DNA from: a virus
IMG/VR virus record: IMGVR_UViG_3300036715_000532
Coordinates: 1-41,533 of that record
Length of the DNA stretch: 41,533 nt
Strand: one strand, 5' to 3'
A model generated the notes under the pieces. That model saw only the letters and a list, made by a program, of their open reading frames with translations, was not told the DNA's origin and ran no database searches. Of the stretch, positions 3,099-39,045 are shown piece by piece (within the stretch, counting starts at the first letter, position 1; every line of letters starts with the position of its first letter). Position numbers and translations under genes: made by a program.

Positions 3099-3749
3099 AT
3101 GGGCATTCTTAAGCCTGTAGTATGTGACGGTATAACTCATCGTCAAATCGCTGTCGGTGATATTGTTGCGGGTGCAGAAGTTGTTCCTGCTACTAACGCT
3201 GGCACAGCAGTAACACTTACTGGTTCCATGCTATCGCTTGGTAATTTTCTTGGCAGTCCCGGCTCCGCTAGCACTCTGACACTGGATACGGCGGCTAATA
3301 TTATTGCAGCTCTGTCTGGCGGTCTTGGTAGTGTTGGTATCCAGAATGGTACTAGCTTCCGTTTCCGTGTTATCCAGACTACGGCGTTCACAGCTACTCT
3401 GCAAGCTACAGCTAATACTGGTATTACTGTTAATCGTGGTGTTGTACCTGCATCTGGTTTCAAGGAGTTCTTGGTAACTATTGTGAATGGTACTCCAGCT
3501 CAGACTTTCCAAGCTAATACTACCAATGCAAGTAACATCGTAACTGGTCTGACTAGTGCACAAGCAGCACAGCTGTCAGTTGGTCAAGTAGTAATCAATG
3601 CTGTCAATGGTCTGCAAGGTACATCCGTTACAGCAGTCAATGTTACCTTGGGCACTGTATCTCTGTCTGGTAATGCTAACGCTACATCTACCTCTCCAGT
3701 CGCAGTCAGCTTCAGCCCAGTTGTCCAAATCGACGGTCTGTCCGCTTAA
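3099..3749 (+). CDS. Putative capsid decoration/accessory protein
   Basis: A 216-residue Thr/Val/Ala/Gly-rich, apparently all-beta protein between scaffold and major capsid, preceded by AATAGGAGAA. Residues about 138-205 form a small beta module (VGQVVINAVNGLQGTSVTAV) that resembles residues 70-125 of the downstream major capsid protein. Few charges and no Cys cluster fit a virion surface protein. Head decoration is the likeliest role; a head fibre is an alternative. Confidence 0.6.
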   Translation: MGILKPVVCDGITHRQIAVGDIVAGAEVVPATNAGTAVTLTGSMLSLGNFLGSPGSASTLTLDTAANIIAALSGGLGSVGIQNGTSFRFRVIQTTAFTATLQATANTGITVNRGVVPASGFKEFLVTIVNGTPAQTFQANTTNASNIVTGLTSAQAAQLSVGQVVINAVNGLQGTSVTAVNVTLGTVSLSGNANATSTSPVAVSFSPVVQIDGLSA

Positions 3750-3779
3750 GTCTATAACTAACAAGAAAAGGAAACTAAA

Positions 3780-5000
3780 ATGTCTGCTGGTATTTTTTCA
3801 ACTGCTCTGCTTACACAAGACCTAGCTAAGAGATCATTTGCGGGTATGATTACTCGCTTGATGCCAAATGGTACTGCACCTCTGTTTGGTATTACTTCTA
3901 TGCTGGACTCTGATACAGCAGTAGCTATCGAACATGGCTTCTTTACTAAGACCATGCTCTTCCCACAACTTACTGTATCTGCTGCTGGTCAAGCTGCTGG
4001 TGATACTACCTTCACAGTTGGTTCTACTACTAACGTGCTCCCCGGCATGATTATGCGCGTAGATACAACTGGCGAAAATATTATCATCAACAGTGTGCTG
4101 TCCGCAACTCAAGTGTCTGTATCTCGTGCAATTGGCTCTGTTGCTGCACAAGCTATCGCTGCTTCTGTTAATCTGTATCAAGTTGGTAATGCTTACGAAG
4201 AATCTTCTATGCGTCCTAATGCATTGATTATTAATCCAGTTCGTATTACTAACTTCACTCAGATCTTCCGTAATACTTGGGCAATCTCCGATTCCGTCCG
4301 TACTACAATGATGATCGCAGGTGATACTAATGTTGCTGAAAGTCGTCAAGATTGTGCCGCCTTCCACGCTGCTGACATCGAGAAGGCTATCTTCTTTGGT
4401 CAGAAGTCACAAGGTACACGTAATGGTCAGCCTTTCCGTACTATGGATGGCTTGCTGAACATTGTTGGTAACATCGGTTACTATCCCTCGTACTACGCTT
4501 CTCCAAACGTAACAACTGCTGGTGGTACTACTAACTACACACAACTGGAAGCTGCTCTCGATCCAGTGTTCAACCAAGCTACTGATCCTAAGGTTGCTAA
4601 TGAGCGTGTGCTGTTTGTTGGCGGTCAAGCTAAACGGGTACTTAATAACATTGGTCGCTTGAATGGTACTTACTATATGGTTGATGGTCAAACCTCTTGG
4701 GGTCTGCAATTCACAACTATTAAGACTGCTCGTGGTACGTTCCGTGTTATCGAACATCCGCTGTTTAACTCCAATACCAGTTGGTCTAAGATGGCAGTAG
4801 CTGTTGATCTGTCCTCTTTCCGTCTGGCTTACTTGGGTGATCGTAAGACTCAGAACAAGGAGTTCAATCAAGACGCTGATGCTAATGATAATGGCATCGA
4901 CGCAGTTGGTGGTACTCTGACTACTGAGCTTACAGCAGTTGTTAAGAATCCTCCAGCTAATGCAGTTATCTATAACCTGACTGCTGCGGCACAAGGTTAA
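3780..5000 (+). CDS. Major capsid protein, SU10/DUF5309-like
   Basis: A 406-residue HK97-fold-type capsid subunit. The features around RMRPNALIINPVRI-like residues 145-160 (SMRPNALIINPVRITNFTQI), the DIEKAIFFGQ helix near 199 and the C-terminal KTARGTFRVIEHPLF strand match the SU10 major capsid family. A beta-rich insertion at about 65-130 looks like an added surface domain. AAAAGGAAAC precedes the ATG. An intrinsic terminator lies just after the stop (5037-5068), probably setting the high expression of this gene apart from downstream tail genes. Confidence 0.88.
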   Translation: MSAGIFSTALLTQDLAKRSFAGMITRLMPNGTAPLFGITSMLDSDTAVAIEHGFFTKTMLFPQLTVSAAGQAAGDTTFTVGSTTNVLPGMIMRVDTTGENIIINSVLSATQVSVSRAIGSVAAQAIAASVNLYQVGNAYEESSMRPNALIINPVRITNFTQIFRNTWAISDSVRTTMMIAGDTNVAESRQDCAAFHAADIEKAIFFGQKSQGTRNGQPFRTMDGLLNIVGNIGYYPSYYASPNVTTAGGTTNYTQLEAALDPVFNQATDPKVANERVLFVGGQAKRVLNNIGRLNGTYYMVDGQTSWGLQFTTIKTARGTFRVIEHPLFNSNTSWSKMAVAVDLSSFRLAYLGDRKTQNKEFNQDADANDNGIDAVGGTLTTELTAVVKNPPANAVIYNLTAAAQG

Positions 5001-29960: not shown

Positions 29961-29999
29961 TTACTGTTACTGTTACTATTACTGTTACTGTTACTGTTA
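29961..29999. repeat. TTACTG hexamer tandem repeat (stacked in-frame stops)
   Basis: Six TTACTG units (one is TTACTA) at 29961-29996 run into the stop codon of the leftward gene at 29997-29999. Read on that strand the repeat is TAACAG, so every unit supplies a further TAA stop in the same frame, plus one TAG. Confidence 0.95.
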
Positions 30000-30689
30000 T
30001 TTGGTGCAACGGAAGCCAACGGAGCTGCTGCGATGACCTGACCATTCTCCGTCAAGATAGAATACTCCGGCATCCGACCATGAGCTCCAATAACCGCCCC
30101 GTATAAGTACATAGCCAGTCCCGTTATAGCCTGCGGACGGATACCAACCTACACCTTTCTTAATACTAGGATATGGTGCTGTAGTTATTGAGGGAGAATC
30201 AGGAGCAAAAGCCTTGGCTATGATTCCATCTTCGTCGCCCTGTACATCGTCATAAATCCAACTATATACATTCCCGTTGAAATCGCAGATACGTTCTCCA
30301 TTGGATAGCGTTAGCCAACGGCGTTCCTTAGGGTCAGAAGGTACAAAGTTTCCGGGCTGGGCACTACTGACATTCGTTTTACGAATACCACGGAACAGCT
30401 TGCCTTTACCAACAGCGCCCTTCGTCCAGTTGCAATCTTGCTGTACGATGTCGTAGGCTATTGCCAGTGCTTGAGTCTCCGTTAGTAACTTGTATCCTAC
30501 ATCCGCACAAGCCTCTCGCGCCTCATGATAATTGATACTTACCCAAGGTGGGAGCGATGGATCGAGGACGGCTTTTTCATCCGTTCCCTTGGCGCAGTGG
30601 TATTGACCTACTTGAAATTCCGGTACGACTATACCACTCGGCAACGTTGTTTCTGGCACGGTAATAAAATAGTCTGTTGGCGCGTCCAT
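29997..30689 (-). CDS. FGE-sulfatase/C-type-lectin-like domain protein
   Basis: A 230-residue protein with the formylglycine-generating-enzyme (SUMF1-like) fold signature: PWVSINYHEAREACADVGY (48-66), WLTLSNGERICDFNGNVYSW (125-144), and a C-terminal IRGGYWSSWSDAGVFYLDG...SVGFRCTK (196-230). In phages this fold is usually a ligand-binding adhesin rather than an enzyme. Residues 199-223 are rich in Tyr, Ser, Trp, Asp, Gly, His and Arg, like a diversified receptor loop. Its place in the early arm, far from fibre genes, is odd. AGAGGAC precedes the ATG. Confidence 0.8.
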   Translation of the reverse strand: MDAPTDYFITVPETTLPSGIVVPEFQVGQYHCAKGTDEKAVLDPSLPPWVSINYHEAREACADVGYKLLTETQALAIAYDIVQQDCNWTKGAVGKGKLFRGIRKTNVSSAQPGNFVPSDPKERRWLTLSNGERICDFNGNVYSWIYDDVQGDEDGIIAKAFAPDSPSITTAPYPSIKKGVGWYPSAGYNGTGYVLIRGGYWSSWSDAGVFYLDGEWSGHRSSSVGFRCTK

Positions 30690-37504: not shown

Positions 37505-37549
37505 ATAAAAGAAAAATCCCCTGTACCATATTTCTACAGTACAGGGGAT
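37505..37549 (-). terminator. Strong intrinsic terminator for the first early unit
   Basis: An 11-bp perfect stem (ATCCCCTGTAC at 37516-37526, GTACAGGGGAT at 37539-37549) with a 12-base loop is followed on the leftward strand by TTTTTC and TTTTATC. It lies 43 bases after the stop of the gene at 37592. Confidence 0.92.
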
Positions 37550-38301: not shown

Positions 38302-38334
38302 GGTCTCGTCTTATCCCGCTAGTTAGTAGTGCTG
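38302..38334. repeat. Long inverted repeat, downstream arm (around first early gene)
   Basis: 33 bases beginning GGTCTCGTC and ending TAGTAGTGCTG. Its reverse complement matches 38587-38620 at 29 positions with one bulge; three of the four mismatches would be G-U pairs in RNA. Confidence 0.9.
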
Positions 38335-38349
38335 TACCCTGATGGTGCC

Positions 38350-38538
38350 TTAGATGATGAACCTGTTACTGTATGTTGCAATGGCTGATGGCTCGATGAA
38401 ACCTTTTGTCGGGTCTAGGATAGCATCCCGATTGTTACAGTATGACCTGCGGGTGATGGCTCCACTCAGTAACATCGAGTTGAGCTTATCAATCATGGCA
38501 GTCAATTGTTTCTCCGTAAGGATGAGTGCGTGTTTCAT
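38350..38538 (-). CDS. First early gene, hypothetical (62 aa)
   Basis: Start at 38538 (MKHALILTEKQLTAMIDKLN) follows GAAAGGCGAC. A basic helical protein with a possible DNA- or protein-binding helix pair. It lies wholly inside the loop of the long inverted repeat and is the first gene transcribed from the early promoter. A reverse-strand frame over it is rejected. No family recognised. Confidence 0.75.
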   Translation of the reverse strand: MKHALILTEKQLTAMIDKLNSMLLSGAITRRSYCNNRDAILDPTKGFIEPSAIATYSNRFII

Positions 38539-38586
38539 AGTAGTGTCGCCTTTCGTAAGATACATGAAGTGTATGAGATTACGGAG

Positions 38587-38620
38587 CAGCACCACTAACT
38601 AGCAGGACAAGAATGAGACC
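38587..38620. repeat. Long inverted repeat, upstream arm
   Basis: 34 bases beginning CAGCACCACTAACTAGCAG and ending GAGACC. Paired with 38302-38334 across a 252-base loop that contains the whole first early gene. Confidence 0.9.
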
Positions 38621-38623
38621 GGA

Positions 38624-38636
38624 TTGTTAAAGAGCA
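38624..38636 (-). promoter_or_regulatory. rrn-type boxA antitermination element
   Basis: On the leftward strand the 13 bases TGCTCTTTAACAA match the E. coli ribosomal RNA boxA. It lies about 25 bases after the predicted start site and three bases before the long stem. In rRNA operons boxA recruits NusB and S10 (NusE) to keep RNA polymerase from terminating. Confidence 0.75.
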
Positions 38637-38639
38637 GGG

Positions 38640-38663
38640 AACTACCGAACTACCGAACTACAG
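38640..38663. repeat. 8-bp tandem repeat in early leader
   Basis: ACTACCGA-type units (ACTACCGA, ACTACCGA, ACTACAGG) repeat at the very start of the predicted early transcript, directly before boxA. Confidence 0.85.
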
Positions 38664-38731: not shown

Positions 38732-38759
38732 TCCATACTAACTGACCAGCAGGTTATCA
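38732..38759. repeat. 28-bp direct repeat, copy 1 (operator or promoter)
   Basis: TCCATACTAACTGACCAG followed by CAGGTTATCA. It matches copy 2 at 26 of 28 positions, 55 bases away. On the leftward strand each copy reads (T/C)TGATAA... TTAGTATGGA, like a weak tandem promoter or a regulator site. Confidence 0.85.
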
Positions 38760-38786
38760 ATTGTGATCACCATCATCAGCCCCATT

Positions 38787-38814
38787 TCCATACTAACTGA
38801 CCAGTAAGTTATCA
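38787..38814. repeat. 28-bp direct repeat, copy 2
   Basis: Same element with T and A at the two variable positions (CCAGTAAGTTATCA). It lies about 90 bases upstream of the main early promoter -35. Confidence 0.85.
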
Positions 38815-39045
38815 GTCATCTCAGAAGCTGGCGGGGGTAGGGGCTTTTTTATGAGCTGCCGCCCGTCCCGTCCTAAAGGCCCAATTCAATTTTGCTAAAC
38901 TTTTTCAAACCTCCCCAGAAATGACTAATATATAAGAACCCCATAGCATAGCTACAATATAGAATCCCGCAATCCCTAGTATACTAAATTACTTACCACC
39001 AACTATACTAGCAACTAATTAGTAGAGAAAGAAAAGGAACCAGAA

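Follow-up and report, generated by a model that had tools for sequence, protein, structure and literature searches.

Nus factors are usually regarded as dedicated to rRNA and lambdoid antitermination. In phage lambda, whose boxA sequence differs from that of the rrn operons, boxA-dependent recruitment of Nus factors to the early operon takes place at nut sites, which require boxB and the protein N. In T7, a boxA (GCTCTTTAACAATCTGG) lies at about 813-829, in the structured leader between the host promoter A3 (750) and the first early gene, 0.3 (925); the RNase III site R0.3 is located in the same leader. In the rRNA operons the promoter is followed by boxA, by a 5' arm within tens of nucleotides, by the product and by a 3' arm. 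It was proposed that the NusB-bound boxA stays on the polymerase and that the adjacent boxC thereby meets the trailer, and the resulting leader-trailer helix, for which more than 17 bp are needed, holds an RNase III site (PMC10250234).

The locus described here lies in a stretch of viral DNA of 41,533 nucleotides (IMG/VR record IMGVR_UViG_3300036715_000532), the whole of which is referred to as the window. A first-pass annotation had reported on its leftward strand a 13/13 match to rrn boxA and, directly after it, a long stem around the first early gene. Its coordinates and pair counts were all exact (Table 1), as re-alignment of the arms gave the same 29 Watson-Crick pairs, three G.U, one A.C and one bulge. 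The order that it had likened to rRNA precursors (promoter, boxA, 5' arm, gene, 3' arm) is real as well, and the helix, as in rRNA, exceeds 17 bp. The locus differs from an rRNA operon in that its product is a short mRNA, its loop is about 250 nt and not about 1.5 kb, its arm comes directly after boxA, and no boxB was identified in the window. With T7, likewise a virulent podovirus, it shares a (candidate) host promoter, the same extended boxA, a structured leader and the first early gene, but the T7 stem is local and precedes the gene, whereas the window helix encloses it.

Table 1. Features of the early leftward leader and its surroundings in the window
Feature	Positions	Strand	Remarks
Two upstream repeats, GATAAC(C/T)TNCTGGTCAGTTAGTATGGA	38739..38820	-	Resemble the arm core CTGCTAGTTAGTGG; multiplied in L003
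Candidate early leftward promoter	38697-38668	-	TTTGCA, 18-nt gap, TATACT; TG ahead of the -10 (extended -10)
rrn-type boxA, TGCTCTTTAACAA	38636-38624	-	13/13 against E. coli rrn; the rRNA boxA of the host itself may differ
5' (leader) arm of enclosing helix	38620-38587	-	34 nt; starts 15 nt from boxA GCTC
Enclosed 62-aa gene	38350..38538	-	90% identical in L003/L074
3' (trailer) arm of enclosing helix	38334-38302	-	Partner of 38620-38587
g221, 221-aa early gene downstream of helix	37592..38257	-	tblastn: about 30 relatives
Terminator-like intrinsic hairpin 3' of g221	37516..37549	-	Follows the early gene
Second long inverted repeat	37361-37329 with 37037-37005	-	Arms of about 30 bp; 291-nt loop without an ORF

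The candidate promoter has a match score of 9/12, a quality at which chance matches are frequent, and its TATACT and flanks are kept in the close relative L003 described below. Transcription would be expected to start near 38661, and boxA would then begin about 25 nt downstream. A boxA of the rrn type (at most one mismatch in 12) occurs as a single copy across both strands of the 41.5 kb, in which any given 13-mer is expected about 0.001 times, and no tandem boxA stands right after the 3' arm. On the minus strand TCC separates boxA from the 5' arm, while the trailer arm starts 15 nt past the stop of the 62-aa gene and ends 45 nt before the start codon of g221. Neither gene has its Shine-Dalgarno sequence within boxA or the helix. 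The product inside the arms is a conserved ORF and not a structural RNA, as no Rfam family matched the window leader or the enclosed region; searches of Pfam and PHROGs gave no match for the 62-aa protein or g221. No boxB-like hairpin stands beside boxA in the predicted fold, and no N-like protein was found among the window proteins scanned, which take in part of the small ORFs. The likeness to lambda nut would lie in boxA-dependent Nus-factor recruitment to an early operon, and a possible difference in boxB and N.

The large terminase of the window phage matches those of the Pseudomonas phages PaP2, 119X and PaMx41, Polaromonas phage Tiera, EBPR podovirus 3 and an Aeromonas phage at 31-37%, and PaP2 is placed in the family Fredfastierviridae. 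No RNA polymerase was found among the window proteins scanned. Synteny of g221 and the terminases, found in more than 20 IMG/VR relatives, makes it possible to compare the divergent region across them. Between the divergent operons we also noted a non-coding block (38905-38825, minus strand; GAAAAAGTTTAGnAAAwTT...TTAGGA...AAAAAAGGyCC.A.CCCCC), recognisable in the relatives and in PaP2, which is perhaps a packaging or terminus site or a terS leader. Elsewhere in the window, a 230-aa protein (29997-30689, minus strand) matched FGE-sulfatase weakly (E 0.0012) and short of the curated cut-off; this fold is frequent among the targets of diversity-generating retroelements.

When the whole window was scanned for long-range stems, the enclosing helix reached a score of 60 for the minus strand and of 46 for the plus strand, while the best stem in four Markov-shuffled genomes scored 39; the only other strong stem was the second inverted repeat (37361-37005). 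The minimum free energy fold of the RNA from 38680 to 38280 contains the helix (z = -4.1), and 0 of 100 shuffles were equally stable. The wobble-compatible mismatches had previously been read as a sign of selection on RNA pairing. In the window alone the strand-specific wobble is not significant (three G.U against one A.C), and the claim is upheld by the analogous cassettes of other phages, where wobble is strand-specific (see below).

At the DNA level this region of the window had no match in the phage collection, and searches starting from g221, from the 62-aa gene and from the arm sequence led to one close relative only, IMGVR_UViG_3300035181_002381 (L002/L003/L074, hereafter L003); another candidate, L196, was an unrelated chance match. 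Promoter, boxA, arms and gene are all kept in L003. When its 30-pair helix is set against that of the window, 24 pairs are unchanged, three carry double compensatory changes and two are changed on one side (U-A/U-G), the single A.C of the window is a G-C, and none of the 30 pairs is broken. Sliding the partner by 1-3 columns left 0-1 double changes; a shuffle control for the compensation gave 58/500, weak with two sequences. Covariation in the window lineage rests on these two sequences, because a single close relative carries the exact helix. The boxA is identical at 16 of 17 positions in L003, the stretch from the start site to boxA at 60% and the leader past the 5' arm at 61%, and the sequence of the 5' arm is conserved no better than its surroundings. 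In the intergenic DNA of L003, and in the second-stem arms of relatives, short units (GATAACTT, CCTAGTT, CACCAGAT and others) have been multiplied, and such multiplication of short non-coding units may be the route by which arms arise and get replaced.

Related phages had been proposed as the place to look for covariation and for conservation of boxA. The close relative supplies the compensatory changes, but most of the diverged relatives lack both boxA and the enclosing helix, the latter being absent in about 20 of them. Loss of boxA or of pairing in related genomes, which the first-pass annotation had named as evidence against its own reading, is thus seen in part. At the position of the 3' arm, just upstream of g221, 13 of 22 relatives have a strong local hairpin (z < -2), which in the clear cases ends about 30-60 nt before the g221 start, the window trailer ending at 45 nt; the other nine have no significant local hairpin in place of the helix. 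A stem before g221 is therefore common in the family, and the window lineage builds it using the leader, around the first gene. Near the same place three relatives carry a boxA-like site (AGCTCTTTAACAAT in L055, TGATCTTTAACAAT in L043 and AGTTCTTTAACAA in L056), with long hairpins after each. In the distant relative PaP2 no enclosing helix was found, and its divergent region has no boxA.

Viral contigs often contain the extended boxA (TGCTCTTTAACAATYYGG), with at least 119 stretches in IMG/VR. In a blind test, two IMG/VR scans for it gave 239 listed matches, which came to 82 contexts, 80 of them testable. Among these listed matches a long-range arm began 8-25 nt after boxA in 9 of the 80 contexts, as compared with 0 of 1541 random positions at the same loci, and six of the nine enclosed a gene on the sense strand. 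Among the six are Pectobacterium phage DU_PP_II, Yersinia phage fHe-Yen3-01 (Melnykvirinae) and a relative of the Alishewanella phages Slicko01 and Slickus01, which have genomes of 141 kb. The other three of the nine (L088, L228 and L256, from prophages) were set aside, as the gene between their arms is encoded on the other strand; in these and in many other prophage contigs, the extended boxA follows a GCGCCC...GGACGC hairpin that sits at the end of an oppositely oriented gene.

Pectobacterium phage PP99 has the same succession of boxA, arm, a single 81-aa gene and partner arm, and through its relatives we found two cassettes each in SP6, K1E, MR4 and R15Z, as well as cassettes in ECBP5, JSF38, DT115P1, KL01, Entb_48, mutPK1A2, VLCpiA2b, ACG-C91 and K74PH129C2; PP2 and MA13 of the Melnykvirinae have one too. 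Like the window, the cassettes of SP6, K1E, Gajwadongvirus, Melnykvirinae and Colwellvirinae consist of boxA, an arm 9-15 nt further on, one small gene and a 3' arm, with a helix of 20-30 bp, although the second helix of SP6 (30 pairs, a single G.U) has three annotated genes inside. The spacing of 9-15 nt holds in nearly all cassettes and is 15 nt in the window, within the 8-25 nt of the blind test, with a single gene enclosed and the trailer placed after its stop. The SP6-type cassettes differ in arms unrelated to those of the window, in belonging to phages that encode their own RNA polymerase, and in often being tandem, the next boxA following 2-5 nt past the 3' arm in many Autographiviridae cassettes. 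As roughly half of the cassettes found are tandem, this form does not define them all. Slickus01 has two cassettes, the first of which (L333, 2267-2470) is a boxA with a 26-bp helix around 149 nt without an ORF; the insert had no tRNA or Rfam match, and may be a non-coding RNA produced in the same manner as rRNA. On a 99-kb contig related to the Alishewanella phages, L215, a boxA cassette surrounds a 156-aa gene (3207-3800), and a TTGACA promoter follows its 3' arm. No description of such a cassette was found in the open-access literature, a scope that possibly leaves out papers behind subscription, the original genome papers of SP6 and K1-5 among them.

The 24 distinct arm pairs of the Autographiviridae and Alishewanella cassettes are 98.4% paired, and swapping the 3' arms between cassettes lowers pairing to 51% (maximum 66%). 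Symmetric re-alignment of 21 of these pairs yielded, for the transcribed strand, 38 G.U and 16 A.C (p = 0.004, with relatedness ignored); an initial count of 37 G.U against 2 was biased by the scoring of the search and was dropped in favour of the symmetric one. Near-complete pairing together with strand-specific G.U indicates that the helix acts as RNA. That it is instead an inverted repeat at the DNA level, be it a replication origin, a cruciform or a set of regulator sites lying in the leader by chance, we consider improbable. A stem of that kind may be present in the window, since the second inverted repeat has no gene inside, its counterparts in about 15 diverged relatives have unrelated arms with a common AT-rich core (TTTTAAAGnCCCCTAAAAATAGACCCTAAGA), several with a TTGACA-type promoter at the 3' arm, and its wobble (73 G.U, 77 A.C) has no strand preference, and it is thus possibly a replication origin or other DNA element. 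The core of the first helix also resembles the upstream repeats. Yet the first helix encloses a gene, starts at boxA and scores higher on the transcribed strand, and its analogues have strand-specific wobble. Still harder to credit is a coincidence, in which a chance boxA would have come to lie beside a chance or relic inverted repeat: only two genomes of the window lineage carry boxA and helix, and this lineage readily forms short repeats in intergenic DNA, but neither the 13-mer nor a stem so far beyond the shuffles is expected by chance, and the arrangement recurs elsewhere. Given the blind scan, the arm-swap control and the compensation in L003, we disfavour this explanation and hold it to be the least probable of all.

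A different division of labour, unlikely in our judgement but deserving real weight, would be that an RNase III site of the T7 type separates the first gene from g221, with boxA as an independent anti-Rho element and both simply residing in the leader. T7 itself has boxA and then local structure ahead of gene 0.3, many relatives of the window phage have only the local hairpin before g221 and mostly no boxA, and boxA contexts in viral contigs are mostly without an enclosing helix. Against this, nearly all of the distinct cassettes, which come from several groups of phages, have an arm that starts no more than about 15 nt from boxA, and often a further boxA directly follows the 3' arm, an order that unlinked elements would not need. 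It was also considered whether the helix, or NusB/S10 bound to boxA, governs the access of ribosomes to the 62-aa gene or to g221. The translation of suhB is repressed via boxA (PMC5725501), and the g221 start lies just 45 nt past the helix, but the Shine-Dalgarno sequences of both genes are clear of boxA and helix, and translational control of this kind is very improbable.

The reading that we favour, and think probable, is that boxA and the two arms form a leader-trailer cassette for early mRNA, working by NusB/S10 tethering, looping of the mRNA, annealing of the trailer and processing by RNase III; it is preferred because the cassettes combine a boxA-arm spacing of 9-15 nt with helices of 20-30 bp. 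Host RNA polymerase would initiate near 38661 and transcribe boxA within about 40 nt, whereupon NusB/S10, with NusA, NusG and SuhB, would bind boxA and remain on the polymerase. The 5' arm, adjoining boxA, would be kept close to the RNA exit as transcription of the first gene proceeds and its RNA loops out, and the 3' arm, once it emerges, would anneal to the 5' arm in the manner proposed for the leader and trailer of 16S rRNA. The helix of 25-30 bp would be a substrate for RNase III, whose cut would release the 62-aa mRNA as a unit of its own and create a processed 5' end for g221, some 45 nt ahead of the start codon, and the modified polymerase would be expected to resist Rho along the remaining leftward operon.

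SP6-like and other unrelated phages likewise have the rRNA-like layout of boxA, arm, gene and arm at their early genes. It is conceivable, though we put it slightly short of an even chance, that boxA and, immediately after it, an RNA helix around a gene make up a portable cassette that has repeatedly arisen or been exchanged in unrelated phages, and in which Nus tethering makes the polymerase fold and individualise each early mRNA. If true, the rRNA leader-trailer mechanism would for the first time be seen in general use beyond rRNA. An mRNA cassette in cultured phages, SP6 among them, would let the role of boxA in looping and annealing be tested with ribosome synthesis unperturbed, and the cassette would explain how one early transcript gives rise to separate, protected mRNAs in these phages.
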